From Stropharia rugosoannulata (lineage: Eukaryota; Basidiomycota; Agaricomycetes; Agaricales; Strophariaceae), in NCBI GenBank assembly GCA_028532985.1, contig JANCIK010000002.1, positions 3,782,001 through 3,846,000 of the forward strand: a stretch of 64,000 nucleotides of DNA, given 5' to 3'. The position numbers and the translations under genes are program-made. The notes below the pieces were generated by a model. It was not told the DNA's origin. It saw only the letters and a list, made by a program, of their open reading frames with translations, and searched no databases. Below, piece by piece: positions 1,613-33,016 of this stretch (positions are counted from its first letter, which is position 1; every line of letters begins with the position of its first letter).

Positions 1613-1630
1613 TGGAGCCCACCGCGAGGG
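1613..1630 (+). other. Primer-binding site candidate of element A
   Basis: TGGAGCCCACCGCGAGGG begins with TGG, lies two bases after an LTR-like CTCTCA end at 1610, and recurs exactly beside the 5' LTR of element B (minus strand, 32030-32048). Its complement would be a tRNA 3' end ending in CCA. I did not identify the tRNA. Confidence 0.65.
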
Positions 1631-1795
1631 GTAGGTTCAGAAATCTCATATAGTGTTTCGGGGACCACGGCTTAGCGCCTATTACAAAACATTTCAAAAA
1701 TTTCAAATACAACGGGGACGAGTAACAAGCGAGGCAAATTTCCTGCACCGTCGTCGCTAGCAGAACCAGCGGAGGCTAGACCATCATTTGGTATA

Positions 1796-7362: not shown

Positions 7363-7546
7363 TGAAACGCTGGCGCGCTTCAGTGTAGTTTGCGTTCTTA
7401 AATCACACGATAGAACCAGTCAATATGTATATTGAGGTACTACGTGTAGGAAAAGAACTAAGGGGGAAAAGGCGCGTCTGGCGCCTTTTATATCGCATCA
7501 ATGCATCACGTGTATAGGCGGTGGGTATCCTCTACGCCCCGTTACA
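7363..7546 (-). repeat. Element C 3' LTR
   Basis: A 184-bp LTR that differs from 18713-18896 by one G/A and one G/C, seen by direct comparison. It ends TG...CA. Flanked on the left by CCCCG and on the right by the polypurine tract. Confidence 0.95.
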
Positions 7547-10123: not shown

Positions 10124-11389
10124 TTAGCCGTCGCGCTTGGCCATCCCCGTGGGTGCGCGCGGTAGCTGCGAGGGGAACCTCACATTGTGGAGCTCGAGGT
10201 AGCGGTCGAGGGCTTCCAGCTTTCGACATTCTGCGTGTGGTTCCCAGGTTGTGTCGCCCAGGGACCAGCGTACTTCGTATTCCAGCTGCCCCTGTTCGTC
10301 CCGTCTATGGCCTACTATCTCGTCTACGAACCATTCTTGCTCATTGTCAGCACCGAAGTCGTAGGGCTCTGGCGTAGCACGATTCGGGAACAGCGCATCA
10401 GAAGATGCGTGGTATGGGCGTAGTAGAGAGACGTGGAACGTGCCGTGTACACGTCGTCGTTGCAGCACAGGAGGCAAGTCCAACTTGTAGTTGGACGTCT
10501 CGGGCCGGGCCGCGGATACTCTGTACGGGCCGATATATTTCGGGCGTAGCTTGTGAATTCGGTTCTTAGGTAGGTTCAAGTTGGCGGTTGATAGGAATAC
10601 TAAGTCACCGACGTTAATCTGCGGTTCTGCAGAACGTTTACGGTTCGCCTGCTTGGTTTGCCACATGCGTGCCTCAATAATTGCGTCGTGCGCACTCGCA
10701 AGGTTGCGTAGGGCCTGATGCGCAAAGTCCTTTACTCCGCGGGGTACGTTCGAGCCTCTAATCTCTTTGATCATGCTCGGCATATACCCCTTGTTGAGCT
10801 CAAACGGTGCGTACCCTGTTGACTCGGATATGCTTGCGTTAATAGCGAACTCCGTCATATCCAGGCATTCGACCCAGTTCTCTTGGTTGTGAGAAACTAC
10901 GGATCGTATGATCTGTGCCACTGATCGGTTAGCCCTCTCTGTTTGTCCATCCGTCTGGGGGTGGAATGACGTAGACATTAGGAGTTTTGCACCCAGGATC
11001 TTATGCAATTCTGTCCACCATTTCGACGTGAACTTAGGATCACGGTCGCACACTATAGACTCAGGTAAGCCGTGAAGACGCACTATCTCGCGTCTGTATA
11101 CCCATGATAGTTCTGAGGCCATCATCCGTGTATTGACAGGAATTAAATGGACCATGCTGGTCATTCGGCATATTATCACCCAGAGGTAATTGAAGCCTTT
11201 TACTTCTGGGAATGGGCCTATGAAGTCCATTCCAATGGAGTCCCAAGGTTTAGTGGGGACGGGTAAACTATGCAGTTTGCCCGTGGGGTGTGCATTGGCC
11301 CCTTTAGTGGTTTGGCAAGTAATGCAAGTCTTGCACCATTCCTCCAAATCCTTCCCCATTCGTGGCCACCAGTACCACCGCCGGACATA
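10124..11389 (-). CDS. Element C integrase and C-terminal chromodomain (downstream part of pol)
   Basis: This inserts the cDNA into chromatin. The Tc1 insertion separates it from the first half of pol. The zinc-binding CC pair (CKTCITC) is here, while the matching HH pair lies across the insertion near 12745. Catalytic residues are visible: MDFIG, VCDRD and QTERA, spaced as DD35E. A GPY-like region follows (KYIGPYRV), then a chromodomain at the C-terminus (EWFVDEIVGHRRDEQGQLEY ... WEPHAECRKLEALDRYLELH), the hallmark of chromoviruses and thought to guide insertion to marked chromatin. The frame agrees with the upstream pol half: 1,323 bp plus a TA shifts the phase exactly as observed. Confidence 0.92.
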   Translation of the reverse strand, partial: YVRRWYWWPRMGKDLEEWCKTCITCQTTKGANAHPTGKLHSLPVPTKPWDSIGMDFIGPFPEVKGFNYLWVIICRMTSMVHLIPVNTRMMASELSWVYRREIVRLHGLPESIVCDRDPKFTSKWWTELHKILGAKLLMSTSFHPQTDGQTERANRSVAQIIRSVVSHNQENWVECLDMTEFAINASISESTGYAPFELNKGYMPSMIKEIRGSNVPRGVKDFAHQALRNLASAHDAIIEARMWQTKQANRKRSAEPQINVGDLVFLSTANLNLPKNRIHKLRPKYIGPYRVSAARPETSNYKLDLPPVLQRRRVHGTFHVSLLRPYHASSDALFPNRATPEPYDFGADNEQEWFVDEIVGHRRDEQGQLEYEVRWSLGDTTWEPHAECRKLEALDRYLELHNVRFPSQLPRAPTGMAKRDG

Positions 11390-12712
11390 CTCGTGGTCAC
11401 AAAAAGTGATGGTCACATACCTATTTCCCACGCGTTGAACTCCTCCTACCTCCGACATTCTGCAGGTATATTTCATTTCAACATCAATTCTGAGCTATGA
11501 AAATTTGACAGTCAATATATTACTTTAATTTGTACATATAACAAAAATTAAAATGGAGTATGACCACCATTTGCCTCCAAAACAGCCTGCACACGCTGAG
11601 GCATTTGTAAAATGTGCTTGTTGATCTTTTCGATTGATAATTCCTCCCATGCGGCTCGGACTGCTTGTTTGAGTGCATCAACTGAATTTACCGAAGGGTG
11701 AGAGCGAACAATAGCTTTGAGGTCATGCCAAACTGGCTCGATGGGATTTAAATCAGGTGATTGTGCTGGATGACTTTCCAACGGAATGTTGTTTTCTTCA
11801 AACCACCTTTGTGTCGATTTTGCTCGATGGCTAGCTGCTCCATCATGCTGAAATTTTACCAAACCCTTCTCCTGTGCTATCCCTTCCCAAAAGCTCTTTA
11901 AAACTCCATCCAATACCTGTGACTGATAACGAGAGGCAGTCATTCCTCCACCCTTTCCCCCAGGATAGTCAAGAACAAGTAATGGCCCTTTCTGGCCAAA
12001 AATTATACAGGCCCAGATCATAATGCGGATGGAGGACTGACTGAATGTTGGAACAATACAGTCCTCGTGAAATTCCTCTTCTGGGCGGCGCGTGACAAAG
12101 ATAGGGCCATTCCGATCACCTAAGCAAACATAGCATTCATCCGAGTAGATAGTGGTCTTGAAATCTTCGTCACTAAGGCCCTTTTTATCCTTTGCCCAGG
12201 CAAGCCTTGCAGTCTTGTGAGCACGAGTAAGATATGGTTTACGTCTTGCAACTCGTCGATGGTATCCATGTGCATTTAAGACATTCCGAACAGTTGATAC
12301 TGATGGCTGTGATGGCAAGACATTACTAAGCTCGGAAAGTGCACTTCTTCTGTGTTTCTTGACCTCTCGGATAAGGGTACGCTCCTCACGGAGGTCTAAT
12401 AGCCTTGGCCTGCCAGATCGAGGACGATTGGAAACAGTTCCGGTTGATTTGTACTTCGCAATAATCTTCCTTGCAGTTGCAATTGGAATGTTTTCTGCTT
12501 CAGCTGCGGATTTTGCTGTTTGGTTGGCCAAAACACGTCCAATTAATCGGTTCTTTTTGGGAGTATCATGCTGAGTACGTGCAGTATTTACAGAAGACAT
12601 TTCGTAGTATGGGAGTATGTGGTTGTAGAGATATGAAGTGGATTACGCGTCATGAATCTGAGTGGAGGTGCAATGATGCAATCATGTGACCGTTACTTTT
12701 TGTAACCACGAG
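11390..12712 (-). mobile_element. Tc1-type DNA transposon inserted in element C integrase
   Basis: 1,323 bp, flanked by TA at 11388-11389 and 12713-12714, with about 29-bp TIRs that start CTCGTGGTYACAAAAAGTRA and have about three mismatches. It carries a single intact transposase gene. Length, TA target and TIR structure fit the Tc1/mariner superfamily. It interrupts the zinc-binding part of the element C integrase. Confidence 0.96.
11548..12600 (-). CDS. Tc1-type transposase, 350 aa, intact
   Basis: A cut-and-paste transposase that binds the TIRs and inserts at TA. The N-terminal third has helix-turn-helix content (AAEAENIPIATARKIIAKYK, then a GRP-type linker SGRPRLLD). The catalytic triad is visible: IYSDECYV, FQHDGAASH and DLNPIEPVW. 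Thirty-four residues lie between the second Asp and the Glu, so it is DD34E, the Tc1 arrangement. The length of 350 aa is typical. There is no internal stop and both TIRs are present, so the copy may be active. Start and stop lie about 110-160 bp inside the TIR ends. Confidence 0.95.
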   Translation of the reverse strand: MSSVNTARTQHDTPKKNRLIGRVLANQTAKSAAEAENIPIATARKIIAKYKSTGTVSNRPRSGRPRLLDLREERTLIREVKKHRRSALSELSNVLPSQPSVSTVRNVLNAHGYHRRVARRKPYLTRAHKTARLAWAKDKKGLSDEDFKTTIYSDECYVCLGDRNGPIFVTRRPEEEFHEDCIVPTFSQSSIRIMIWACIIFGQKGPLLVLDYPGGKGGGMTASRYQSQVLDGVLKSFWEGIAQEKGLVKFQHDGAASHRAKSTQRWFEENNIPLESHPAQSPDLNPIEPVWHDLKAIVRSHPSVNSVDALKQAVRAAWEELSIEKINKHILQMPQRVQAVLEANGGHTPF

Positions 12713-15393
12713 TACATATGTGTCTTATGCGTTGCAAAGTGACCCACTACTGAATGTGCTTGGTCAATTATTTTAGTTACCAATTCTCGGTCCGTTTGGG
12801 GTATGCATGTCACCCGTTCACCAGTGGTATTTATCATGTAGACCAGTCCATCGTCCGATATTCTAAAGTTACGGAATTCGTCTGGTTGGGATAGTATAGG
12901 TGCGTAGAATTTATCATCTCCGTACCCGGATTTTATTTGTTTGACGAGCGCGTCCTCTTTCAGTAATGTGGGTGGTGCCACTGCGCGATCCCGTTGTAGT
13001 GCCTCGCCCAGCGTGATATCAGGCTGTCGTGCGCTGTGTATCGCCGCACGTTCTGTCTGCCGTGTCGCGCGGTCGGTCACATTCTGGTGTTTGTGTAGCG
13101 CCTCGGCCTCTCTTGTACGCGGCTCCACCGAGTCCTTGAGGACCTGTAGGCGCTTACTTCGACGCACGTTTCCCTTGTCCACTCGCATTGCTTTCATGGC
13201 TTCGTCTTGGGGAAATGCTTCCTTATACCTAGGTATTGGTAGGTCGTCTCCCATTTTGTCAATCCGTATGTCTGCACTGACATATTCATGTGTTGCATAT
13301 GAGTCAGCCGGAGTATCACTCTCGTAATACCTCGACAGGCAGTCTGCAATTTTGTTGAGTTCCCCCTTTACATATGTAATATCAAACGTGAATCTGGCTA
13401 GGTAATCTAGCCATCGACGCTGTTGGTTACTTAATGTAATCTGCGTTTTGAAGAATTCCAACGCTTTATGGTCAGTTATGATATGTATCTTATAACCGAC
13501 TAGCTTATCCTCCCATTTTAGGAGTGCCTCCAGTATGGCTAAGGTTTCAAGTTCATGCACTGCATAGTTGTGCTGTGCTGTTGTGAATTTCCTCGACATG
13601 AACCCTGCCGGCCGGCAGTCCTGCCAGCTCGGCCCTTGTCCGTACATGGCTCCTATGCCTGATTTGGAGGCGTCGCATATCACCCAAATAGGCTGGCCAG
13701 TCTCAGGTCGTATGGGCTGTAGTATCGGTGTTTTTGTACATAATTGCTTTATGGTTTCGAAACACCGTTGGTGGATGGGTCGCCACATAAACGGTGCGCC
13801 ATTCTGGCTCATCGCTAGTAGTGGACCCGTGTATACTGATAGATTGGGAAGGAAATTTCCTACATAATTAACCAATCCCACGAACCTCTGGATATCGTTG
13901 TACGTTCTGGGTGTGCGCCAATTACGTATTCGTTCCAACTTGTCCTCATCTGGATGTATACCATCGTCGTCAATGATGTGGCCAAGGCAATCTACACGAT
14001 CTGCGTATAGCTCGCACTTGGCCCATTTTAAATATAATTGGTTATCCCTCAATCGATCAAACACTATTTTCAAGTATTGTTCGTGCTCTTCAATTGAGTC
14101 TGAGAATATGAACATATCATCCAGGTACACATGTAAGAATATCCCAATGCAATCCCTGAATATGAAGGTCATCATCCGTTGGAATGTTGATGGAGCATTA
14201 CAGTCCCCTTGCTGCACCACGTTGCTCACGTATGTTCCAGCAATTGTGCTGAATGCAGTTTTATGAACGTCCTCTGGTCGTATCCGTACTTGTTCATAGG
14301 CGTCCGTCAGATCAATCTTGGATCTATATTTAGCTCGTGCTACGTCTTCCCTTATCACTTCTTGGTCGGGGAGCGGAGTCACGTCTTTAATTGTGTTGTC
14401 ATTACGCTGTCGGCAGTCAATAACCGTACGCAATTTTCCATCCTTCTTTGGGATACACATCAATGGTGCAGCCTGTGTTGCACTGCTCGGAGTCCACCAT
14501 CCAGCTGCTACATAGCGATTCAATTTCTCGTGAAATTCTTTCCGTAGGGATTGGGGACATCGTGGTGCATGGTATGAGTATACTCTCTTTTCGTCTATTA
14601 GGTGTATCTCATGATTAATATCACGGAATGGAGGTAGCTTGACCGGTGTGCCATTTACCATGTCGTGATATTCCTCTTTCCATTTGTTTCTAAAATTAGG
14701 TATCTCGGCTTCCATTGGGTCTGGCTGCCTTGTTTCCCTGGCTGCGCGTATAGCCTCCTTATCTGGTGGTATTTTCTTGCGCTCAAATCTGTCTTTTAAT
14801 TTCTGAATGTTCATTGTAATTGTATCTTCCACATTCAATCTCATCTTGGTATGTCCCAGCCTTATAGTTTTAGCTCTGGGATATATGTCATCAAAGCTCA
14901 CGGCTTCGGATATCTCGCTAGATGCAGCCTTCCGATATGTTTCGTGGCTTTTCCGTGGGTATTTGTCCTGCCATGCTTGTCGTGCCGCAGCGTCAAATAT
15001 CATTTGGTTTATTTCTGCCGGCATCCGTGGGTCAAGTGTCCACTCGAAGTCGGTTGGTGGAGTTGGTCTTTCCCAAAAACGTCTGCGAAACGGTTCATTA
15101 GGGTAGACATTGTTGTTTATGTTTGAATCACCCAGATGGTCCGGCTTCTCAATGTTATTCTTTGTGGTTGAATCACCAGTTTGACCTGGCTTTTCAACAT
15201 TATTAAATTCAACGTTATTTTTATTTTCTACTTTCTCATTTTTGTTATACTCTTCCCCCCCTCTCCGAGGCCCATTAAGGGCCTCAGCATCCACAGATAT
15301 GTGTGCCACTACGGACTCAGAAGAAGCAGGCAGCGCCCGCTCCCTCTGCTCCCGTTGCGCCCTGAGGTCGCCGTCTTCGATAACCTCTTCCAT
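12713..15393 (-). CDS. Element C reverse transcriptase and RNase H (upstream part of pol)
   Basis: Copies the element RNA into DNA. The first ATG is at 15393, in the same frame as Gag with only a UGA and seven codons between, so it is probably made as a Gag-Pol readthrough product. The RT core contains KDGKLRTVIDCRQRN, KIDLTDAYEQVRI and the catalytic VYLDDMFIF. RNase H follows (WVICDASKSGIGAM, ELETLAILEALLKWE, IITDHKALEFF). The region ends within the integrase zinc-binding segment (VVGHFATHK), where the Tc1 element is inserted. The N-terminal 200 residues are Asn/Glu-rich and low-complexity. Confidence 0.93.
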
Positions 15394-15414
15394 GGATGTC
15401 TTTGGGGGCGGCCG

Positions 15415-18712: not shown

Positions 18713-18896
18713 TGAAACGCTGGCGCGCTTCAGTGTAGTTTGCATTCTTAAATCACACGATAGAACCAGTCAATATGTATATTGAGGTACTACGTGTAGG
18801 AAAAGAACTAAGGGGGAAAAGGCGCGTCTGGCGCCTTTTATATCGCATCAATGCATCACGTGTATAGGCGGTGCGTATCCTCTACGCCCCGTTACA
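18713..18896 (-). repeat. Element C 5' LTR
   Basis: A 184-bp LTR, partner of 7363-7546. It abuts the CCCCG duplication and the resumed hairpin satellite on its right. Confidence 0.95.
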
Positions 18897-19180
18897 CCCC
18901 GCCCTTTCCTCCTCCCCTGTCCGGGAGCCGGCCCGGCTGCCGCGGCGCGTCGTCACCCGGCCGAAACGAGACAGAACGCACCCCAGCACGCAAGTAGTGC
19001 GTGCTGGGGTGCATGCGAACGCCCTGCGGCCGTTTCAGTGGCCGCAGGGCGCGTGGGGCATTGAATACGCCCCGCCTTTCCTCCTGTTCCACCCCCGGAC
19101 TCCCGCAGCGCGTCGGCCCCCACCCGAAACGGAAGAAGACGCACCCTAGGACGCGGTATTTGCGTCCTAGGGTGCGTAAC
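18897..19180. repeat. GC-rich hairpin satellite, right part
   Basis: Continuation of the array at 6360-7362, separated by element C. It has one full unit (H1 near 18979, H2 near 19021, H3 near 19052) and the H1 of a last unit at 19141-19175. In that last H1 both arms have changed together (CACCCTAGGACGC paired with GCGTCCTAGGGTG), so pairing is preserved. Confidence 0.9.
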
Positions 19181-21484: not shown

Positions 21485-22449
21485 TGTGAGGTGCGTAGTT
21501 GGGTTGGACTGGTCTGAAAAGCCTGTCTCTATAGTTCACAATGTGCGAAGGCAACGTGTGTACAACGATAGCACGTTGAAAAGGTTTTACTTGTTTTATA
21601 ACAAGGAGCTTCCAGTGTACGAGGTTTATACAACGGTTTCCGATGCGAACTGGTATGATGTGTGTAGGTGGAATTTAACCCTGAAGGAAGCTGGAGAAGT
21701 ACAGAGATATTCTACTCCTTAAATACCCGTCTGGTTGCCATGCCCAGATCGTACCATATACATCCACGAAGATCCGACCGCCCGTGCTGACTTTATCTCG
21801 TCGGAAACCATGCTGCACTACAGCATGCTTCATATCTTGGCCACAAATTTCCTTATCTTCGGAAACCAAGCCCAAGCACAAGAAATCTTCCTGTGGCCGG
21901 ATCATCTCCATGTTCACCCCTAAACATACATCTCCTCCAACCCTCTCTCCACACCTATGTCCCTTGTGTTTGTGTCGAGATTCTTCTGCTTTCTGCTACC
22001 ACACGCCTGCATGTCGTCGGAAACCCTTGCATATCTTCGGAATCCGTCACCATTGTTGTCCCAGGTCGTATGTATGAGTATTTCCATGTGATTGACTTCC
22101 TTGTGGGTCCATAGTTACATCAGATTGTTAATATTGATCTGATGTTGTCGGCATCAGAAGTCCAATATTACTCTGATGCTGTTGTCTTTCTTGATCTGCC
22201 ATTGAGTTGTAATAACATCTTGAGTCTTCCTTGTGCTTGTCTTCTTGTTTCATCATGTACATATTTCATATCTTCGAATAAACTTGCATCTTCATATCTC
22301 AGTCTTCATATTTCGTGCTTCTTCTTGTTCTTTCAGTTTCCGATAGTAGTTTCCGATCGTTATGGCGGATATGTCGCTTCTTGTGTATCTATGTTGTAAA
22401 CCTTATGGTTATTCTTGTTTTCACGAGGGGCCAGCCCCAGCCCCTCACA
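21485..22449 (-). repeat. Element B 3' LTR
   Basis: A 965-bp LTR repeated at 32052-33016 with an offset of 10,567 bp and no difference seen. It contains about seven TTCCGA/TCGGAA sites. Short open frames within it (78-113 codons) are identical in both copies and are not taken as genes. Confidence 0.96.
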
Positions 22450-22465
22450 TCTCCCCCCAACTTTT
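22450..22465 (-). other. Element B polypurine tract
   Basis: Minus-strand AAAAGTTGGGGGGAGA directly before the 3' LTR start (TGTGAGG), the expected plus-strand primer. Confidence 0.8.
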
Positions 22466-22496
22466 AAAATACCACCCTCCTGGGTGGTCGGAAACC

Positions 22497-22504
22497 TATA
22501 AATT
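22497..22504 (+). promoter_or_regulatory. TATA box of antisense gene 1
   Basis: TATAAATT, 39 nt before the ATG at 22536, on the strand opposite to gag-pol, just inside the 3' LTR. Confidence 0.6.
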
Positions 22505-22535
22505 TCAGCCAAAAGCGTCGTCGCCATCAAGCACC

Positions 22536-23279
22536 ATGGACCCCGCAGCAGAAAGAATATTTCGCTCGCTCTGTTTTGCTCCAGGAAACCGAAGCCATGC
22601 ATTCGTGGTACCAACGACCATGCGTGAATTTGCGTTGTCCATCCGTCACCAACATGAAATCCTGTGCCTCGCCATCTACAAGGACATCCGCACTCGCAGC
22701 GTACGAGAACTGAACATAATCGACCATGCGCAAGTGGAAGCGTACGTTCATGATCACCTTGATCACATGGTAAGCCCTCGAACCGTTTCACAGCTAGCCC
22801 TGCTAATGATAGCGCAGCGCTTATTGCTATGCTCTCGCGTCAACATGCGGCCGTCAAATGAGCGTGAAATTGAGCGTATGATTCCACCTGAATGCCGCTA
22901 CCTAAGCGCAAGTGCCAGGCATTTACTGGAGATGTTTCCGATGGAGGATCATGAAGGGTTCGAATATTGGTCGACCATATTGCGGTTCATGGCGCTATAT
23001 GCTGAAGACACTGCCGACGCGACCAAAGAAAACCAAGTCGACTTCAAAGAATATAATGAACTAGACAGCAACAGTCGGTGGTGGATACAGTTTTCAAACC
23101 GCGTCAAAGCCGAAGACCCCCTTGAAGAACACCTGCCTGCATTCAGGCCAGCCGCGACACCTGAAGACACATCAGATATCGAAGAAATTCCAGCGGCGAT
23201 CTTTCATCTTCAAACGGCCGTGCCCACCCAACGTCCGCATGCCAGATTCCGAACATCGGTGCGAGAGATGGATATATAA
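22536..23279 (+). CDS. Antisense gene 1 in element B; unknown function (about 231-247 aa)
   Basis: Not recognised. The ATG at 22536 follows a TATA box by 39 nt. The protein is largely helical (MREFALSIRHQHEILCLAIY, CRYLSASARHLLEMFPM, STILRFMALYAEDT) with an acidic, proline-containing C-terminus. A 48-nt in-frame segment at about 22770-22817 has GTAAG, GCTAAT and CAG signals and is probably an intron, leaving about 231 aa. The TAA stop (23277-23279) lies inside the TATA box of the next gene. It is transcribed against gag-pol, so its intron would not be removed from the element's genomic RNA and could be inherited. Confidence 0.7.
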   Translation: MDPAAERIFRSLCFAPGNRSHAFVVPTTMREFALSIRHQHEILCLAIYKDIRTRSVRELNIIDHAQVEAYVHDHLDHMVSPRTVSQLALLMIAQRLLLCSRVNMRPSNEREIERMIPPECRYLSASARHLLEMFPMEDHEGFEYWSTILRFMALYAEDTADATKENQVDFKEYNELDSNSRWWIQFSNRVKAEDPLEEHLPAFRPAATPEDTSDIEEIPAAIFHLQTAVPTQRPHARFRTSVREMDI

Positions 23280-23280
23280 A
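23273..23280 (+). promoter_or_regulatory. TATA box of antisense gene 2, overlapping the stop of gene 1
   Basis: TATATAAA, 45 nt before the ATG at 23318. The TAA inside it is the stop codon of antisense gene 1, so the block is tightly packed. Confidence 0.6.
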
Positions 23281-23317
23281 GCGTAGAGCACAAGTAGATA
23301 GTTCCATAGCACCCGCA

Positions 23318-23806
23318 ATGCAAGCGCCTTTACGTCTATATCTTCAATCATTAGTGCTTGAGTTGCCCACCGATCTAAACGATTTCCGATCGCGATTTCC
23401 GATCCCATATGTCTTCAAACATTGCCTTGATCCCTTCGTCGAAGCCCTAGAATACGAATACACACGAATACTCCAGCTTGATACAATCAACTTGCAGCCT
23501 GTCATAACCGATCTCCGGTCCTTCTTGTTCCTAGGACAAACCATAGCAGTAAGCAACTTCTTCAGGTGACGTGCCGCCCTAACACAATCATAGTATATAG
23601 CATGGCGTGGTCGCCAGCATGCAGCCATACATCTATCGCCTAGCGAGCAAATCACCATGGTCGAATTGAGAGTGCTAATGCGTATGCGATACATGACGAT
23701 GACCTTTGGATACACCGGGCACGAGATTCCCGAAATCAAAGAGCGTATGGACGACGTTTTCTTCCAGTATCAACAGGCATGTGTGTGCAGAGTAGGCGAC
23801 CCATAA
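23318..23806 (+). CDS. Antisense gene 2 in element B; unknown, two exons, 147 aa
   Basis: Exon 1 is 23318-23548 and exon 2 is 23594-23806. They are separated by a 45-nt intron with GTAAGC, a CCTAAC branch site and TAG. Both exons are whole codons (77 and 71 including the stop), so the phase is exact. The product has helical segments (FVEALEYEYTRILQLDTINL, VELRVLMRMRYMTMTFGY) and no motif I can assign. The TATA box is 45 nt upstream. The gene continues the head-to-tail array of antisense genes. Confidence 0.72.
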
Positions 23807-23910
23807 CCAGCAACCGGCTGTCGGAAATTAGCTAGATAATCTCCAGACAAGTGACATGTACCCATGCGTCCAGATCATCCAATGCCAAGTAGCCCAGCGC
23901 CTGAAAACTG

Positions 23911-23918
23911 TATAAAAG
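23911..23918 (+). promoter_or_regulatory. TATA box of antisense gene 3
   Basis: TATAAAAG, 38 nt before the ATG at 23949. Confidence 0.65.
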
Positions 23919-23948
23919 GAAAGGCAACTAGTCTGTCCAACACCAGAA

Positions 23949-24459
23949 ATGAGCACCACCACTCGATTCACCGCATTATTGACCACAGCTGTGAAGAATC
24001 CAGCGGACATCATGCAGGTCCTAGAGCATGCCATACGGCCCACCATAGACCAATTGTTATCCGATCAAATGCTACCTCGTTCCGCAGCAGACACGATGGA
24101 AACACATCGGACACTTGCCGCCCTGTGCCATTACATTGTAAGTTGTCCCACTTGACCTGTTGAAATCAAACCCAATTGACAGTCCATATTCTGCACAGAA
24201 TGACCATTTTGAAGATCACATAACCGCGAAACAATTTCGACCCCGGTCATCGTGGACATTACTCTTGCTTCGCCGGATCATGAGCGAATACGGAGCCGTT
24301 CTTGTAGACAGCGAGCAGGATAAGGCATTAAGCCTACTCAAAGCAGCTGAGAAGCAGTCGCAAGGTTTCCGCCACTGCTACTTGTGCGAGACTGACTTCA
24401 CCATAGATGGAGTAGAGAGATGGAGGGACTGGATTGAGAGACAAGCCAATCAGCCGTAG
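23949..24459 (+). CDS. Antisense gene 3 in element B; unknown, two exons, 149 aa
   Basis: Exon 1 is 23949-24137 and exon 2 is 24199-24459. They are separated by a 61-nt intron (GTAAGT...CACAG) in phase 0; other acceptors give stops, whereas this one is open to the TAG at 24459. The N-terminal part is helical (PADIMQVLEHAIRPTIDQLL). The C-terminal part has a CYLCETDF pair of cysteines and a Trp-rich end (GVERWRDWIERQ). The cysteine pair could bind metal, but no second pair is nearby. Function unknown. Confidence 0.72.
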
Positions 24460-25007
24460 ATACAACTGCTCATAGATGTAAACCCATTATAATAGATTTC
24501 CGCACACAATTTTGACGCTGTCATATGATGCCGAAAAGAGCCGAATGAAAATGAAAGATGCCGAAGTAAGACTGAACATGCCGCCCAGCTTACACATGCG
24601 CCATCACAGCCGAAAATGCCAGTTGAAAACTCCGCGGCGGCCCAGAGCATTGCCGCAACAACAACCCGACAGCAGACCAAAGAGGTATCGCCATTTCCTA
24701 AAGCAGCACGGCATGTCACCATAAACCCGGCGCCATCACGCCGTCATACTTGATTAGGCAACGCCGCTTTCCAGAACAAGAGCCACGGTGATTTCCGACC
24801 TAAAAATAGAAAATCCGAACAAGATTCGCGTCGAAGTTATCGCAGTTCCAGTAAAGGCAGCCCAATTGTCCAACATACAGGACCGAGTCATAGAGAAGAA
24901 TCCACAGCATTCTATCGGTTTCTTCGTAGTGCCATCCGCGCATGACGCCGTACCCAATCCAAGCTAGCCGATATCCGAAAACGTGCAGAACCACAGTCCT
25001 AGAAGAA
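24460..25007 (+). other. Intergenic part of the element B antisense block
   Basis: No convincing gene. An open frame of 70 codons at 24512-24724 is Arg/Gln-rich with no start context. TTCCGA-like sites continue. A TATA box for gene 4 lies at its end. Confidence 0.5.
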
Positions 25008-25015
25008 TATAAAAG
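25008..25015 (+). promoter_or_regulatory. TATA box of antisense gene 4
   Basis: TATAAAAG, 71 nt before the ATG at 25079, followed by a pyrimidine-rich leader. Confidence 0.65.
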
Positions 25016-25078
25016 CCCGCCCATTCCACTCATACTTTCACCATTCTTTCCTTCCCTCCTCCATCTCCCTTCCCAATA

Positions 25079-26073
25079 ATGCCTCCTCGTCGTACCGCTC
25101 GTCCTGCGTCTACACACGAAGTCGACATGCGCTGGGCCGCCCCTCAAATCCTTGGTCTCGCTGAAGGATGGTACGAATACGAGCAAGTAAGTAGCCATGG
25201 AGTAATGAATGTCTGTTTTATTAACCATTGATCCAGATATGTTCTTGGTGCAAAAATCACCCCGGTTACATGTGTACCTTGCGCTACACACCTCGCTGGA
25301 GCAGGGCGTGTACCAACTGCAAGGTTGACAAAAAGAATTGCAGCAATAATACTGCCGAATGTGTAAGTTTCTGGTAATTGTTTTCGGTCGTTTTTCATGC
25401 TGATAACTTCATCCGTAATTTAGAAACAACACCCGGGCGACTTCTTGACTCGCGCCCTAGCCGGTAGCGACTTCTCATACGACCGACGGTTCCGTACCGT
25501 CCACCCAGATCCCGAAGAAGAGAGCGATGACAAGAGCGACAGCAACCAGGACGATGATGACGAGGAAGTAGACGAACTCGAAGAAAATGACGAGGCCAAC
25601 ACAGCAGCCCTCCACGACGCGCCCACGAGCCCTATGCGCATTGAGGATGACGGCCCTCTTCCCTATTATGACGCTATGCACGCTTTCGAGTACACAGATA
25701 CCATTGTCGCGAACCAAAAGGATGTTGGCGAAGGAACCTCAGGTAAGTAAATGCAATTTCCTATCATCAACAGTTTCGGCAACCGTATTGTACAGGTATT
25801 ACGCGTTCCAGCCCCAGCACAAGTACTAGCGGACCTGTCGAAGGTTTACCATCGTATGCGCCATATACACAATTGGTGCGAGATTTCCGCGAATGGCAAA
25901 CGACTGCTGACCCGACAAATGGGCTTGAAGAGCTGGACGACCTCTGCGACCGAAACTTGCGACATTATTCCGATATGGAAAATCGACTTCGCGATCTGGT
26001 GGAATTATCGATGGAGCGCATTGAGGAGATCCGTAAAATCTCCGGGGAAGTCAAAAGGTTCCGCAGGAAGTAA
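25079..26073 (+). CDS. Antisense gene 4 in element B; Cys-rich putative metal-binding protein, four exons, 276 aa
   Basis: Exons 25079-25186, 25237-25362, 25424-25742 and 25796-26073, with introns of 50, 61 and 53 nt, all GTAAG...AG, whose phases close exactly to the TAA at 26073. Exon 2 is cysteine-rich (ICSWCKNHPGYMC and RACTNCKVDKKNC), with spacing that loosely resembles Zn-Cys fungal DNA-binding domains but does not match Zn2Cys6. A long acidic Asp/Glu tract follows in exon 3. The C-terminus is a coiled-coil-like helix (MENRLRDLVELSMERIEEIR). I infer a nucleic-acid or protein-binding regulator, without proof. It converges on the end of pol at 26332. Confidence 0.78.
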
Positions 26074-26331
26074 AAGGGAATTTATATGTATTTCTTCTTG
26101 TCGTATTTCCATTCACCCTTCGTCGGAAACCAGTTGTCATAATATCTTGTAATCAATAAATTGTCTTGGCCATGCGTATTTTAGTTTGACAACCATAATT
26201 TCATAATCTTGTAAAAACAGAAACATAACCTAAAAGAAAAAGAGTTTATTTAACAAATGAGAAGAAATGAACTTGAAACTGTTGAAGCTCCAATAAGAAA
26301 TTTAAGTTGTGTAAGCGTTTTCGGAAACTTG

Positions 26332-29300
26332 TTATTCATCATCAGGCGCCACTTGCGAGTCCTCTGGTACCTCTTCTCGTACCATGCCTTCAATTAGATC
26401 CTTGGGTTGAGATAATAGTTCCCATGGTATTTCCAGCGGTTCTCTTGATATATAAGGTATTAGGCGATATGCGGCGAATCTCTTGTAGGATACGGCTCCA
26501 CTGAGTTCAGCACAGATGTAAGACCCCCCTTTCGTTCGTCGTAACACCATTAGAGGCCCAAAGTATCGCGGTTTTGTTTTCCGATCAAGTGATTTTTCAA
26601 CTGGTGAATTTCTGACTAGGACCAAAGTACCTGGTGCGAAGTCTTGTAACACGATGCGATGCTTATTGTATTGTTCAAAATAACGAGCTTGCCTCAGCCG
26701 TGCTTGCTCCACTTTGTCCTTGACCCTTTCAAGATCCTCCGGTCGCTTCTGCAGCATTATAGCTCTTCGTGCTATTAGCTCTTCTTCGGAAATCATATCA
26801 ACTTGATCGGGAAACATGAAGGTTGCTTCTGTGATGTCAAATGGGAATAACGGTTCCACCCCGTGCGCGATATAGTAGGGAGTATAACCTGTTGATTTTT
26901 GTACCGTAACATGTTCAGCCCATAAAACAAATCGGAGAATTAATGGCCATATTGATAAGTCGCCTTCACAAGTCTTGACTATTGCTTCCCTAACATCGAG
27001 ATGTCGTTTTTCAATCAAGCCATTTGCCTGCGAATTATATCCCGAAATCCTGATGTGGTAGATTCCATATTTTTCCGCCAAATAGTTCACGGCTTTAACC
27101 CAAGGTGTACCATTGTCTGTCACGATAACAGCCATAGCTCCCCATCGCGACATAACATCCAACAGAAATTCTCCTATAACCGTATGGTTTTCCGACGCTA
27201 CAGCCAGAGCTTCAGGCATTCCCGAAAGTGAACATCGTAGATGAAGACAGAGATGTTTTCCCCCTTTTCCTTTGGGCATAAAGAAAGTATCCGCGTGAAC
27301 CTTGACAAATAGCGACAATGGACGAGCTACCATTGGCGGAATGAGGTTTTTTACCCTTGACTGTCGCTGACATATATCGCAAGTTTTCAAGTACCACGTA
27401 AGATCATTACTGATGTTAGGCCACCAAAAACGCTTCGTGAGCCTATTCCACACAGTGAAATAAGACTTATGTCCTAAGTTATCGTGTACTTCTTGAAGTA
27501 TCCGAAGCCTATCTTCTTGTTGTATCACTTGTTTATGTTCACCATCGTCGGACCTTTTCCATAACTTTCCATCCAGTATGAAGAATTGCCTTACTTTCTT
27601 GAGGAAGCGGTCGTACTCCTTTCTTGTGCGAATCCATGCGGGTCTTTCGGGGTCGCCTAGAAATTCTTTGACCTTCTTTAATTCCTCATCCATGTCAGCC
27701 CCTCTGTCGGAAACTGGTAACTTAAGCGTTGTAGTAATTTCCGCACGGTGAGGTATCGATTTAGCTGCAATAAGTACCATAGCCTTGTAAGACAATGACG
27801 ATCCTGGTATTTTCTTCTGTACCATGGACATGTGAGTGAATTTCCGATCGTCATTTTTGTTTAAGACCCAGATTCCGAAGCCGCATGCCCTGTCGATCCA
27901 GTCTTCTACTTCTTCTTCGGAATCTTCTTGAGGATCTAATTCTGATCGTCTCCTTCTTGACAGACCGTCTGGTGAATGTGATTTTCCAGGGACGTGTTCT
28001 AGCTTGAAGTCAAACAAAAGTATGGCGGCTATCCAGCGATTTATCGTAGCATTAGGTTGTATATCGGGGTTGTTTAACATTCCCTTGAGGTAACTCGCAT
28101 CAGTCCTGACTATCAAGTTTTCCACTCCAACCAGGTATATCCGATATGCTCTAAGGCTGCGAAATAGGCCATATAACTCGATCTTGGCTTGTGAGTATCT
28201 TGATTCTCTTTCGTTCCAAGTTATCGAACCAAACCGCGCAGGATGTTCCTTTCCGTCTTCTTTAACCTGAGATAAAATAAAACCCACGGCTATGTTGCTT
28301 GAGTCCACCTCCATTATGATCTGTCCTTCGGATTCATAGTCCAATGCCGTTAGTGCGGGAGACTGAATTAAGAGACGCTTTAAACTGTCCATTGCTTCTT
28401 GTTCTCTTTGTCCCCATGTGAATTCAACGTCCTTCTTTGTTAGTTCAGTTAACGGTCTTGAATGCATTGCATAATCTTTTATAAAGATACGCATTACACC
28501 CAATGTTCCCAAGAATGAGCGAACTTCTGTCAAGTTTTCACAAGGTTTCCAATCCCTGATAACTCTGACTTTTGACTCATCAACCGTCCTTCCTTGGATG
28601 CTGCACATATGGCCAACAACATTAATTCTTGGTACAGCCAAAAAGGATTTCGTGGCATTGAAGGTTCCTCCAGCATGCTGTATCCTTTGAATAATGCGGT
28701 GTACATTTTTCAAGTGTTCCCAGACAAATCTTCTGATACCAGGGTTTTCGGAAATCGTTTCATAGACCCCATTCTCATCTTGATAATAAGATCGTGGTCC
28801 TTTGACCGGTACATCATCCACAAAAGGTGCCGTAAATTCAGGAATCTCAGGCTCCAAGATAAATGACACATCGCCCTGTTGGACTTGAACCGAATTTGTA
28901 AATCCTTGTGGTAGACGGGTCAATCTCAGGTTTCCGATAGGCGAAGAGAACGTAGTATAATCTCTTGAATCTTGATGAAGAACCCGATGGTCAAATCCTA
29001 CAAACAAATCAAACATGGCATAGATAGTTCTTCCACCGAAAGATTCCGCATAAAGTTCTACAACTGGCGGTAGAGCTGAGTCTTTTATGGTTACTGCATT
29101 CAACCTTCTCAGGTCATGCACTACCCGTATTGCTCCGCTTTTCTTTGGCACATATAAGATCCTTGACCGATAAGGTGAACTAGAAGGCTCATATACTTTG
29201 CTTGCGACCTTATCTTGAAAAATTCTCGTGACTTCTTTAGCGATGCCTGGAGGTATCGGTATCGGTTTTTCCGCCCATGGTTCATGTGGTACAACGGGTA

Positions 29301-29910
29301 TCTTTAGAGGTTCAAAATAGTCTTCTCTGAAGGCACCTTTCTCCATCTCATTCCAGGCGAATCCCATCTCATGTTCTTTAATGATCCATTGAACTAGACG
29401 AGCTTCATCCGGTGTCAAGAAGCCATCTTCATTTATGTTCCAGGCGTCCATTCGTTCTTTAGTATAGCGTATTCCTGGTTCAATATGGTCCACTTTAAAA
29501 GGTAACGGTCTCATATTAGCCAGAGGATCCGATGGAATTCTTCTAATAACACGATATTCTTCGGGAAGTGTAGTTGACACAGGAAACGTCCGTCTTGCCA
29601 CAGGTTTATATTTCTTCCTGGCTTTTATTATTAGTGCTCTTTGTTGAAAAGAGTAAGCATAAGTCTTCTGTAAACATTGGCCGATAAATCTAGCCGAAAC
29701 TTCAAAATTAAAATTAGTAGGGTATATTTCATGGTATGATGATCCTCTTTCATCATCTATTCTTGCCGCAAATAAGGGAGTTATAAATCGTCCAAATGAT
29801 AGTGCTGAAGGAATATCCTTCTCTTGCTGTTCATGTCGTTTCTTGTGCACTATATTTAACATGAACATCTTTCCCGACCGTTTTAATTCAGTCGGGATTC
29901 TGGAAAATCC
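26332..29910 (-). CDS. Element B RT, RNase H and integrase (pol)
   Basis: The polymerase part, in the -1 frame relative to Gag-protease and entered at the GGATTTT site (29910-29904). The open frame itself extends upstream to an ATG at 29982. The RT has AIRVVHDLRRLNAVTIKD, an ILDL-type block MFDLFVGFDHRVL and PFVDDVPVKGP, where FVDD replaces the common YxDD. RNase H has IIMEVDSSNIAVGFIL and LIVRTDASYLKGML. The integrase has the HHCC finger (VHDNLGHKS, CDICQ) and the triad HADTFF, IVTDNGTP and GLIEKRH, with 34 rather than 35 residues between the last two. No chromodomain is seen at the C-terminus. The ORF is intact at about 1,200 aa. Confidence 0.93.
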   Translation of the reverse strand, partial: GFSRIPTELKRSGKMFMLNIVHKKRHEQQEKDIPSALSFGRFITPLFAARIDDERGSSYHEIYPTNFNFEVSARFIGQCLQKTYAYSFQQRALIIKARKKYKPVARRTFPVSTTLPEEYRVIRRIPSDPLANMRPLPFKVDHIEPGIRYTKERMDAWNINEDGFLTPDEARLVQWIIKEHEMGFAWNEMEKGAFREDYFEPLKIPVVPHEPWAEKPIPIPPGIAKEVTRIFQDKVASKVYEPSSSPYRSRILYVPKKSGAIRVVHDLRRLNAVTIKDSALPPVVELYAESFGGRTIYAMFDLFVGFDHRVLHQDSRDYTTFSSPIGNLRLTRLPQGFTNSVQVQQGDVSFILEPEIPEFTAPFVDDVPVKGPRSYYQDENGVYETISENPGIRRFVWEHLKNVHRIIQRIQHAGGTFNATKSFLAVPRINVVGHMCSIQGRTVDESKVRVIRDWKPCENLTEVRSFLGTLGVMRIFIKDYAMHSRPLTELTKKDVEFTWGQREQEAMDSLKRLLIQSPALTALDYESEGQIIMEVDSSNIAVGFILSQVKEDGKEHPARFGSITWNERESRYSQAKIELYGLFRSLRAYRIYLVGVENLIVRTDASYLKGMLNNPDIQPNATINRWIAAILLFDFKLEHVPGKSHSPDGLSRRRRSELDPQEDSEEEVEDWIDRACGFGIWVLNKNDDRKFTHMSMVQKKIPGSSLSYKAMVLIAAKSIPHRAEITTTLKLPVSDRGADMDEELKKVKEFLGDPERPAWIRTRKEYDRFLKKVRQFFILDGKLWKRSDDGEHKQVIQQEDRLRILQEVHDNLGHKSYFTVWNRLTKRFWWPNISNDLTWYLKTCDICQRQSRVKNLIPPMVARPLSLFVKVHADTFFMPKGKGGKHLCLHLRCSLSGMPEALAVASENHTVIGEFLLDVMSRWGAMAVIVTDNGTPWVKAVNYLAEKYGIYHIRISGYNSQANGLIEKRHLDVREAIVKTCEGDLSIWPLILRFVLWAEHVTVQKSTGYTPYYIAHGVEPLFPFDITEATFMFPDQVDMISEEELIARRAIMLQKRPEDLERVKDKVEQARLRQARYFEQYNKHRIVLQDFAPGTLVLVRNSPVEKSLDRKTKPRYFGPLMVLRRTKGGSYICAELSGAVSYKRFAAYRLIPYISREPLEIPWELLSQPKDLIEGMVREEVPEDSQVAPDDE
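29880..29910 (-). other. Programmed -1 frameshift signal of element B
   Basis: GGATTTT (29910-29904) lies in the Gag zero frame as G-GAT-TTT. It is followed by 7 nt and a perfect 6-bp stem, CCCGAC paired with GTCGGG across a 12-nt loop (about 29896-29873). Shifting back one base enters the pol frame as GGA TTT (Gly-Phe). GGAUUUU is an established slippery heptamer in plant RNA viruses (dianthoviruses). Confidence 0.75.
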
Positions 29911-31861
29911 GCTAACTCTTTTTCGGAAACCTTGTTCCTGGGCTGAGTTGGAATAGTAACCACCTTTTGCGTGTTGGGGCAAGTCAAAGTAATTTCCTGG
30001 TCGCCATTTGTATAATCCCTAGTAGTGCACCCAGTATACACAAAGAACGGTCGTCCTATCAGAACTTGAAAAGGGGCTTTATCCACGACATGTACTTGAA
30101 AATAGAGTTCAAGGCTTCCAATAGTGATTTTAAGGTTTTCGCACATTCCGTCCGTTTGCGATAATTCCGTGTTGGCAGACTCCATATATATTTTCCTTTC
30201 TGGGTTTATATTGTGAGACAGTTTTCTCCATATGCGCTTGTCCATTGCCATGATTTCCGATCCTTGGTCCAAGACACATTCCGCCGTGAATTCACCGTTT
30301 AGCAACGCGGTATCACCCTGAGTTTCATAAGGAGAAGCCGTCAAAAGGACTCTATCTGATGGCCCATTTTCCGAAGCAAATTGTAGCACATAAGACCCTT
30401 CATTTTCTTCGCCATGGACATAGCTAACCGTCGGAATTCTCTTTGGTGTAGTTGTTTCCTTGAAATATTTCCGAAGTTCTCCAGAAATAGCCAACAACTC
30501 TCTTTGAGAAATAGTAATTTCTGCATCCAAAGATTTTGATATGACTTTCTTAAGAAGATCCAGATTTTCCGCTCCTGAGGTGAATCTGTACTGGGGTCCT
30601 TTAGCCGGTTCAAATCTTACATGTGCTTCTGGTATTGTCTTTTCCGATTTCCTTTCGGCAATCACGACTTCAGGGACTTTTTCATAAGCAGATGAGTTTT
30701 TGCCTGGTCCAGGTTTATCTTGGGGCGAAGACCTTGTCTTCAGATAAACCTCACCGATTTCTTCGTCGACTTCTTCGAGTTTACTGGAAGAATTAAACAA
30801 GGTTTCAGCCGTAGTACAGGAAAACATCATTGTGGTAGCTGGCGACAGGTGAGGGGGTACATCTCGAGCACGTTGCAGTTTGAGGATGTTTTCAATCCTT
30901 TCTTTTATTGTTCCAGTTCCATTGATCCAGTCGCCGTTAGCCATTGTGAATCTACCATTCGGTCCTTGTTTGATGATTCCCTTGTTTATAAATTCATCCG
31001 GCAAGTTGCAAGACCTCATAATATGATTAATGTCTCCGCAAAACAAGCAACCAGGGGCGTAGCGCGGAGTGGAACGATACATAGGTCTTTCTTGCGTCGG
31101 AAAAGATGTATTAGGTTGGCCTTGCATAAACATCTTTATTGATCCTAATTCCGATGTCATTTTCCTTAGCATGAGCTCAAGAGCAGTTTCTTCGGTTTTC
31201 GTCCGTTCACGAGGTGTGTCTTCAAGGCCATACCTGTCAGAATAAGCGTTATCTTGAAGAACATATCGAGCCGCTCGATTAACTTGAAGATAATCATGAA
31301 CCAGGCCCGGTTTCCGCTTCGGGTCTTCAGCCGTTAATTGAGTAAGAACCTTCGCCCTGAATTCTTTTGGAAGACCTAGAACATAGTTTCTGTTGATGTC
31401 GTCTCTTGATGATAATTGCTCCTTCTCCAGATAAGTAGCTATAATCATGAATTCACAATGATATTCTGCTAGAAGTTCTTGATTATCCATGGGTTTGCTC
31501 GAAAACTTCTGTATTAATTTATGCAGATCGTTGACTGAGTATTTGTAGAGCGAATCCAACCCAGGGAAATATTCCAGTAATATTTGTTTATTCTCCTTCC
31601 AGGATTTGTTTTCATCTAGAATATTCTTCCATGTTTCGTGGTATCGGTAATCCACATACCACAGGGTTTTTGTAATCCGTGTGATATCCGATGTGTCTCC
31701 CTGTCTTTGCATAATTCCTCGATGTCCTCTAGGTATCGATGTAAAGGAGTAGTGGGTCCTGTAAACGATGGAGCATCTTTTGAGTTGCGATTTGGGTAAG
31801 GCTTGACTTTGGGCGCCACGGTTTGAACTTCAAAAGGGTTTGCTTCGATTCCGTGATCCAT
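29883..31861 (-). CDS. Element B Gag-protease (one frameshift near 31700)
   Basis: Gag capsid-like region (YRYHETWKNILDENKSWKEN, LLAEYHCEFMIIATYLEK), zinc knuckle CLFCGDINHIMRSCN, linker and aspartic protease with VLDQGSEIMAM (Gln after the catalytic Asp) and FQVLIGRPFFVY. The N-terminal part (ATG at 31861) and the main part (open from 31712) are in different frames, overlapping at 31616-31712. A single-base loss near 31695-31710 explains this. The frame is also open upstream to about 32040 without an ATG. The gene ends at 29883, after a -1 slippery site. Disruption near the N-terminus would block expression unless it is a sequencing error. Confidence 0.85.
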
Positions 31862-32029
31862 TTCCGATATATGGCTGAGTACTGAAGATATTTGGCTTCC
31901 TGACGGTGTCGGTCTTTTCCTTCTTCTCTTGATGGGCGCTTCAGGAGGTTGTAGGGGTATAGCAAATTCTGCAGCAAGTTGACGAGTTATCCGACGGTCT
32001 GGAACAGACGGATCTATTGTGAACTGTAG

Positions 32030-32048
32030 ACCCTCGCGGTGGGCTCCA
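32030..32048 (-). other. Primer-binding site candidate of element B
   Basis: TGGAGCCCACCGCGAGGG on the minus strand, three bases from the 5' LTR end and identical to the element A candidate at 1613-1630. Confidence 0.7.
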
Positions 32049-32051
32049 CGT

Positions 32052-33016
32052 TGTGAGGTGCGTAGTTGGGTTGGACTGGTCTGAAAAGCCTGTCTCTATA
32101 GTTCACAATGTGCGAAGGCAACGTGTGTACAACGATAGCACGTTGAAAAGGTTTTACTTGTTTTATAACAAGGAGCTTCCAGTGTACGAGGTTTATACAA
32201 CGGTTTCCGATGCGAACTGGTATGATGTGTGTAGGTGGAATTTAACCCTGAAGGAAGCTGGAGAAGTACAGAGATATTCTACTCCTTAAATACCCGTCTG
32301 GTTGCCATGCCCAGATCGTACCATATACATCCACGAAGATCCGACCGCCCGTGCTGACTTTATCTCGTCGGAAACCATGCTGCACTACAGCATGCTTCAT
32401 ATCTTGGCCACAAATTTCCTTATCTTCGGAAACCAAGCCCAAGCACAAGAAATCTTCCTGTGGCCGGATCATCTCCATGTTCACCCCTAAACATACATCT
32501 CCTCCAACCCTCTCTCCACACCTATGTCCCTTGTGTTTGTGTCGAGATTCTTCTGCTTTCTGCTACCACACGCCTGCATGTCGTCGGAAACCCTTGCATA
32601 TCTTCGGAATCCGTCACCATTGTTGTCCCAGGTCGTATGTATGAGTATTTCCATGTGATTGACTTCCTTGTGGGTCCATAGTTACATCAGATTGTTAATA
32701 TTGATCTGATGTTGTCGGCATCAGAAGTCCAATATTACTCTGATGCTGTTGTCTTTCTTGATCTGCCATTGAGTTGTAATAACATCTTGAGTCTTCCTTG
32801 TGCTTGTCTTCTTGTTTCATCATGTACATATTTCATATCTTCGAATAAACTTGCATCTTCATATCTCAGTCTTCATATTTCGTGCTTCTTCTTGTTCTTT
32901 CAGTTTCCGATAGTAGTTTCCGATCGTTATGGCGGATATGTCGCTTCTTGTGTATCTATGTTGTAAACCTTATGGTTATTCTTGTTTTCACGAGGGGCCA
33001 GCCCCAGCCCCTCACA
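32052..33016 (-). repeat. Element B 5' LTR
   Basis: A 965-bp LTR, partner of 21485-22449, followed by the ACGG target duplication at 33017-33020. Confidence 0.96.

Follow-up and report, generated by a model that had tools for sequence, protein, structure and literature searches.

The window, i.e., the whole 64-kb stretch of DNA that was analysed, seems to come from a mushroom-type fungus and contains an LTR retrotransposon at 21485-33016, read on the - strand. Its two LTRs (3' LTR at 21485-22449 and 5' LTR at 32052-33016, both -) do not differ at any of their 965 bp, run from TG to CA, and are flanked on the outside by ACGG, a 4-bp target duplication. By sequence, a primer-binding-site-like stretch TGGAGCCCACCGCGAG (32033-32048, -) lies 3 nt past the 5' LTR, and a polypurine tract AAAAGTTGGGGGGAGA (22450-22465, -) adjoins the 3' LTR. 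The gag region (29883-32095, -) comprises two overlapping frames, 31616-32095 and 29883-31829; in the Pfam scan the second contains DUF4100 and the first has no match. Pol (26332-30018, -) carries RT, RNase H, and integrase in that order within a single frame, with RT_RNaseH and Integrase_H2C2 above the Pfam cut-off and RVT_1 below it (23.4 vs 29.6 bits). By its LTRs, primer-binding site, polypurine tract, gag, and pol, the element is a Ty3/gypsy (Metaviridae) LTR retrotransposon.

Between pol and the 3' LTR, inside both LTRs, four genes lie on the + strand, opposite to gag-pol. This is the antisense block, with its polypurine tract, that a sequence-only reading of the DNA had placed here, and its coordinates are right. 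An antisense coding region in this position, which is what defines an aORF-3R of LTR retrotransposons, is present in nearly all copies. The TATA boxes stand 38-71 nt before the respective ATG, at the distances claimed earlier. Those of gene 1 (22497-22503, +), gene 2 (TATATAAA, 23273-23280, +), and gene 4 (25008-25014, +) are conserved in all 20 copies, and that of gene 3 (23911-23917, +) reads TATAAAA in 12, with variants in 8 of the 20 (TATAAAG in 5, CATAAAA in 3). The stop codon of gene 1 (TAA, 23277-23279) does fall inside the TATA box of gene 2, as had been noticed. The term operon-like is not apt for the block, because every gene in it comes with a conserved TATA box of its own.

Gene 1 (22536-23279, +) encodes 247 aa when read through and 231 aa if a possible in-frame intron of 48 nt (22770-22817, +) is spliced out; its frame is open in 15 of the 20 copies compared, and one of the 15 lacks the ATG. 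The 48-nt segment is in frame as proposed, and its differences among copies, judged by eye, are largely synonymous, so the segment may be coding sequence, or be spliced optionally, and is perhaps not an intron. Gene 2 (23318-23806, +; exons 23318-23548 and 23594-23806) encodes 147 aa, is open in 16 of 20 copies, and has a predicted phase-0 intron of 45 nt (23549-23593, +). Gene 3 (23949-24459, +; exons 23949-24137 and 24199-24459) encodes 149 aa, is open in 17 of 20 copies, and likewise has a predicted phase-0 intron, of 61 nt (24138-24198, +). Gene 4 (25079-26073, +; exons 25079-25186, 25237-25362, 25424-25742, and 25796-26073) encodes 276 aa and is open in 14 of 20 copies. Its three predicted introns (25187-25236, 25363-25423, and 25743-25795, all +) are 50, 61, and 53 nt long in the window and 50-52, 59-61, and 52-54 nt among the copies; their lengths drift, and the exon frames are intact in the 14 copies with an open gene 4. 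Every proposed intron, that of gene 1 included, has GT..AG ends in all 20 copies, and no intron is lost. The introns predicted earlier for genes 2-4 keep their frames and are backed by this comparative evidence.

The comparison covers 20 element copies in one genome. Among the best candidates scored, 21 sites matched the RT-RNase H query over its full 490 aa at ≥97% identity. At 20 of these, paired by eye, block matches lie on the predicted side and in the predicted orientation, in one case some 17 kb off across a probable nested insertion. The remaining site (C12:1642967) has no block match among the best candidates scored. Pooled over open copies, dN/dS is 0.12, 0.19, 0.23, and 0.13 for genes 1-4, 0.11 for pol, and 0.14 for gag; between types, the upper bootstrap limits are 0.15, 0.29, 0.42, and 0.17 for genes 1-4. 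All four antisense genes are under purifying selection. Both the conservation of the block in other copies and its constraint had been named earlier as checks, and sequence comparison confirms the four predicted + strand genes as real, selected, and element-borne. Chance open frames with chance splice sites, whose only support is that genes 2 and 3 are short, have practically no probability and are ruled out by dN/dS far below 1 in all four genes and by intron-length drift with the frame kept.

The block might instead consist of captured host genes, or be an independent mobile element that sits inside the retrotransposon, and the genes' own TATA boxes and intron-like sequences are indeed as in host genes. 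Such an origin is very improbable. Genes 1 and 4 have no genome match outside the element copies, which speaks against the separate mobile element considered earlier. In the protein database they have no homologue at E 0.01, whereas pol, as a control, found 1056 relatives at E 1e-10; the database supposedly consists of intron-free calls and would miss split genes. Moreover, related Ty3 families in the same genome have antisense genes at the same place, under constraint and some with predicted splicing. In several of these, exon 1 is short and the intron is in phase 0; a spliced-ORF search recovered one gene of L033, and the antisense region of L032 has no acceptable intron. When the four proteins were compared by tblastn with the loci of six relatives and the rest of the window, the best E was 0.038, taken as chance. 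Within the block, BLASTP gave a best E of 1.5 among genes 1-3 and, between gene 1 and gene 4, an E of 0.84, and the shared layout of the genes is only suggestive of paralogy. Pol had no match in viral contigs.

None of the four proteins has a Pfam match up to E 5, the TRP28 Transposase 28 domain (PF04195) included, and NCBIfam gave one weak match, of gene 3 to a relaxase (E 0.087), far below cut-off. DNA binding by the block products therefore has no domain model in its support in Pfam or NCBIfam. The gene 4 product has a Cys-rich exon 2, an acidic exon 3, and an exon 4 that looks coiled-coil-like by eye. Its Cys pattern is CX2CX7CX11CX2CX6C. The Zn(II)2Cys6 transcription factor motif is CX2CX6CX5-12CX2CX6-8C, and gene 4 was rejected as a member of this class on its different spacing and the lack of a Pfam match. 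Predicted structures are weak, with pLDDT 67.5 and pTM 0.33 for gene 4 exon 2 alone and pLDDT 41, with helices, for gene 1; the best match of gene 4 among PDB sequences was a cyanoglobin at E 0.097, taken as chance. As no Pfam or NCBIfam model matched convincingly, the regulatory role suggested by the sequence-only reading is one that we infer, and its interpretation of the block is partly supported overall.

Gene 4 occurs in at least five deeply diverged types among the 20 copies. Its dS is 0.063 within types (22 pairs) and 0.823 between them (69 pairs; another between-type estimate is 0.79). For the same types, dS within and between is 0.068 (40 pairs) and 0.094 (131 pairs) in pol, and 0.049 (29 pairs) and 0.063 (107 pairs) in gag. 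A mutation hotspot was rejected as the cause, because within types gene 4 varies no more than pol. The introns of gene 4 differ by 0.266 between types and 0.017 within. A sliding window over 19 copies (type E excluded, and L012 and L022, with interrupted pol, excluded in pol and gag) shows a single sharp between-type peak at gene 4 (24949-26148), with a net divergence of 0.085-0.219 per 150 bp; most pol and gag windows lie between -0.004 and 0.022, and genes 1-3 form only a low shoulder. The gene 4 protein is conserved (omega 0.13, and 0.03 in the Cys region), and adaptive change gave no sign, except perhaps in codons 111-145 (omega 0.53).

Gag-pol trees of 17 copies reject clade status for types A (p 1.5e-6), C (4.6e-4), and D (1.3e-47), i.e., for three of the four types tested, which indicates that the tie between gene 4 and the backbone has been weakened by recombination. 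Gene 4 is not free of the backbone, since type B is a clade on the gag-pol tree as well and the four types are still clustered there (5 changes against a shuffled mean of 8.7; 0 of 200 shuffles as low). Gene 4 itself is mosaic: type B and L035 are 99/100% identical in exon 1/intron 1 and 53% in exon 3b. The types are therefore old, discrete, and placed by recombination on a largely homogenised gag-pol backbone, and a multi-type gene 4 suggests a distinction of element lineages from one another. No LTR segment was found to co-vary with all gene 4 types. Near 21855-21930 of the LTR, all seven type A copies share one haplotype, and types A2, B, and C and the type D copy L027 share another; L026 is rearranged there, and L028 (type E) looks A-like. 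Beyond this segment, L014 (type A) is mixed.

The types might derive from distinct lineages of the element or from distinct host species, having met through horizontal transfer, recombined, and persisted by chance, without any type-specific role. Recombination is clear in this family, and the canonical gag of Ty1 is described as having arrived by horizontal transfer and recombination (PMC7055915). We nevertheless regard such neutral admixture as unlikely: divergence peaks over a single gene and drops on both sides of it, gag-pol is homogeneous, and for 20 copies to show at least five types, gene 4 alone would have to have been retained repeatedly.

Control could also act at the RNA level, where antisense mRNAs would pair with genomic RNA and the resulting dsRNA would feed small-RNA silencing; gene 4 types would then diverge in nucleotide sequence because diverged sequence escapes the siRNAs of other types, with the protein conserved. 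The divergence of gene 4 is mostly synonymous (dS 0.8, omega 0.13), and its 4-fold sites exceed intron-core divergence 1.5-fold, against ratios of 0.82 and 1.06 in genes 2 and 3. In addition, the genome has RdRP and Piwi-domain matches, and dsRNA formation has been proposed for plant antisense ORFs (PMC7264820). On the other hand, the omega of gene 4 is close to that of pol, as expected from plain ageing of protein types, its introns are strongly diverged too, and the 4-fold excess may reflect constraint on the introns or an effect of the alignment. Genes 1-3, too, are antisense, yet show only the low shoulder. On balance, RNA-level control seems rather improbable.

Single antisense accessory genes are known from the plant elements Grande, RIRE2, and Retand and from the fungal Boty brtn, and their functions are unknown according to a review (PMC7264820). 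The aORFs of plant Ty3 elements (maize Grande gene23, rice RIRE2, Silene Retand, PvRetro13) likewise lie antisense between pol and the 3' LTR; Grande has an antisense transcript from its own promoter, and some of the products show nuclear localisation or predicted DNA binding (PMC7264820, PMC11963269). A cluster of Retand may contain more than a single antisense ORF, with 104 detected in the study (PMC7264820/PMC11963269). In contrast to these, with sequences compared through the Pfam scan only, the present block has four genes, three with predicted introns and one multi-type; introns go unmentioned in the main texts of PMC7264820 and PMC11963269. Boty brtn of Botrytis (Zhao et al. 2011, cited in PMC7264820 and PMC8365987) is likewise an extra antisense gene of a fungal Ty3 LTR element, by description, with one gene named against four here. 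Extra ORFs of unknown function beside gag-pol are also described, with no orientation stated as antisense, in fungal Gypsy elements (PMC2864245) and bdelloid rotifer LTR elements (PMC5408684). The novelty claimed earlier therefore narrows, because of Boty brtn, to the array of four genes with introns and to the several types of gene 4, which look new; the literature searched holds no four-gene spliced antisense array with a multi-type gene.

The copy-number control system of Ty1/Ty1', with p22 from gag, resembles this family in its localised divergent gene on a similar backbone, in mosaics with breakpoints near the gene ends, and in purifying selection on the divergent gene, and its self-control is type-specific (PMC7055915). 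The Ty1 type gene is gag and sense, whereas here it is a separate antisense gene with a role read from the evolutionary pattern. The fungal LTR element crapaud of Podospora likewise has localised old divergence, with 14 subfamilies, located in the 5' half of its LTRs (PMC10787394) and not in a gene as here.

That the block is an integral array of self-encoded antisense regulators of this Ty3-type element, with gene 4 type-specific, has about an even chance of being correct, its function being one that we infer. The four genes would be transcribed from integrated DNA by their own promoters. The predicted introns would persist through retrotransposition because they lie antisense in the genomic RNA and so escape its splicing. 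The products may be small regulators of the element, and gene 4, with its Cys-rich and acidic regions, would most likely act type-specifically on its own element family. It is proposed that rare gene 4 types would therefore escape control by resident copies, and such escape would preserve several old types even as the remainder of the element becomes homogeneous, a possible parallel to the divergent gag types in Ty1 copy-number control. Against this reading of gene 4 stand its low omega, the clustering of its types on the gag-pol tree, the lack of a Pfam or NCBIfam model for DNA binding, and the lack of an LTR segment that follows all types. A more far-reaching reading, rather less likely than not, makes gene 4 an identity locus, i.e., an antisense-transcribed self-control gene whose several ancient types would be maintained by negative frequency-dependent selection, with elements in control groups comparable to the immunity groups of temperate phages.

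With many copies in a single genome, selection on all its genes, evidence for introns, and old types on one backbone, this family makes the question of antisense gene function testable; if control is type-specific, the element copies that each type of gene 4 should affect can be predicted. It also shows how predicted introns can be carried stably by an element that replicates through RNA. If gene 4 is an identity locus, a whole clade of fungal Ty3 elements would possess a dedicated antisense regulatory compartment.

The block of antisense genes belongs to a complete, minus-strand Ty3-type LTR retrotransposon (21485-33016) comprising LTRs, a PBS-like site, a polypurine tract, gag, and pol. The paired LTRs are 965 bp long with 100% identity, start with TG and end with CA, and have ACGG on the outer side of both. 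The PBS-like TGGAGCCCACCGCGAG lies 3 nt past the 5' LTR, and the polypurine tract adjoins the 3' LTR. Profile searches gave RNase H and integrase zinc-binding matches in pol above the cut-offs, an RT match below the cut-off, and a DUF4100 match in gag, while named pol relatives in a protein database search came from Leucocoprinus, Candolleomyces, Pleurotus, and Rhodofomes, which suggests a basidiomycete host that forms mushrooms. Between pol and the 3' LTR lie gene 1 (22536-23279), gene 2 (23318-23806), gene 3 (23949-24459), and gene 4 (25079-26073), all on the plus strand.

The block (22450-26300) has 36 matches in its own genome (48.0 Mb, 20 contigs). Nearly the whole block is covered by 19 of these, four follow positions 1-3083 of the block (or nearly) before a diverged 3' end, and the remainder are split or partial copies. 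Two element copies, L012 with C1:141227-142696 and C10:1698038-1712667, are apparently split by nested insertions of ~15 kb. Protein matches to genes 1 and 4 in this genome are confined to the places of block copies, as compared by eye. The comparison set consists of 20 copies of 10 kb each (19 nearly whole and one with a diverged end), beyond which two more diverged gene 4 pieces were fetched.

Open frames are found in 15/20 copies for gene 1 (one without ATG), 16/20 for gene 2, 17/20 for gene 3, and 14/20 for gene 4. Across these 20 copies the block is conserved and under purifying selection, with pooled dN/dS in open copies of 0.12, 0.19, 0.23, and 0.13 for genes 1-4, compared to 0.11 for pol and 0.14 for gag. 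Between gene 4 types, codon-bootstrap intervals are 0.07-0.15, 0.10-0.29, 0.14-0.42, and 0.10-0.17, respectively. The TATA box that the sequence-only reading assigned to each gene is conserved among copies. Its proposed introns hold in large part: GT..AG is present at every one in 20/20 copies, intron loss was seen in 0/20, and gene 4 introns vary in length (50-52, 59-61, and 52-54 nt) with the exon frame intact in 14/14 open copies. However, the 48-nt intron of gene 1 is in frame and its changes among copies are coding-like, which leaves its intron status in doubt.

Copies L016-L026 are 97.2-98.3% identical to the window element in pol but merely 88.8-93.5% in the block, and this divergence is located in gene 4. 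Typing of the 20 copies by gene 4 identity profile gave seven of type A, one A2, six B, three C, two D, and one E. Between types (without E), gene 4 has dS 0.82 and dN 0.10, against a backbone dS of 0.094 in pol and 0.063 in gag; within types, dS is 0.063, 0.068, and 0.049 for gene 4, pol, and gag. Gene 4 introns likewise diverge by 0.266 between types and 0.017 within. The between-type peak extends over genes 1-3 as a low shoulder. The gene 4 types are thus old and discrete, not fast-mutating. Its protein is conserved, with omega at 0.03 for the Cys region and 0.53 for the acidic one, which favours ordinary purifying selection acting on old types over rapid adaptive change. Within the LTR, 21855-21930 carries one haplotype common to type A copies and another common to A2, B, C, and L027 (D); nearer to the block, the LTR does not separate these two groups.

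In gag-pol trees built from 17 copies, omitting L012, L022, and L028, type B holds as a clade while monophyly of A, C, and D is rejected; on the gene 4 tree all four are clades. Types still cluster on the gag-pol tree more strongly than with shuffled labels, so the linkage of gene 4 to the backbone is loosened, not lost. Recombination also occurred within gene 4, as indicated by the E-type piece L035, whose identity to type B is 99% in exon 1, 100% in intron 1, and 53% in exon 3b.

Antisense genes are also present in related families of the same genome, where pol identities refer to the window element. Four elements at 61-62% have an antisense ORF of 158-159 aa directly past pol (places matched by eye), free of stops in all four and 43-45% identical to the query copy in the other three. 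L031 and L032, both read whole, differ by pS 0.82 and pN 0.38; L031 has a 51-nt phase-0 intron after 59 codons, and the intron search found none acceptable in L032. L029 (63%) has an antisense gene (C12:330349-330982) that a phase-0 intron interrupts after 59 codons. This gene is repeated 8 kb away in the same orientation (C12:322306-322936), reflecting either a tandem element or a gene lying in the LTR. Two or more antisense genes occur in the L033 family (~52%); they carry TATA boxes, and their phase-0 introns follow codons 49 and 55. One of their exons matched at 7 places, 6 without stops. No clear antisense gene was found beside pol in L030 (53%). In families at ~50-51%, an antisense ORF gave 100 match rows, some being second pieces of one copy; 86 of the 91 rows with E <= 1.2e-34 lack stops, and the strand opposite to pol was confirmed by eye for a few. 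Six fetched matches plus L034 fall in two subfamilies. Omega is 0.06-0.16 in 10/12 pairs between them (dS saturated and omega not computable in the other two), 0.09-0.39 for pairs inside the first subfamily, and 0.25-0.55 for those inside the second. The first intron is in phase 0 after 49-78 codons in 7/8 small antisense genes tried (genes 1-3, L029, L031, and two of L033, with L032 the exception, and gene 1 counting solely if its intron is real). This shared layout would be at most suggestive of homology.

Elsewhere in the window, a second Ty3 element occupies the right edge (57500-64000; pol 60386-63196) with ~50% identity in RT-RNase H, and its antisense-ORF match lies just past the window end (C2:3846543-3846800, minus strand). 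An ORF at 11548-12642, presumably resembling a Tc1/IS630-type transposase, sits between two frames of Ty3 pol (10124-11494 and 12682-15414). The high-GC stretches 6100-7400 and 18786-19150, where identical peptide words recur across several frames as judged by eye, are probably tandem repeats.

A literature search by title and abstract, with subscription papers mostly outside its scope, found neither a four-gene intron-bearing antisense array nor a multi-type antisense gene. As the genomic RNA is antisense to the block, block introns should escape splicing and survive each cycle; all 20 examined copies retain them. Expression would be driven by the genes' own promoters in the integrated DNA, and selection on transposing lineages would maintain all four genes. 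For the gene 4 types, RNA-level silencing is a live rival explanation, RdRP and Piwi-domain matches being found in the genome, and neutral admixture is another. A study on Ty1 (PMC7055915) describes mosaic elements with breakpoints near the gag ends, purifying selection on gag, and sensitivity to a self-encoded restriction factor determined by gag type. Divergent gag on a shared backbone there resembles the old gene 4 types on a homogenised backbone here, and by this analogy gene 4 would most likely provide type-specific self-control of the element.
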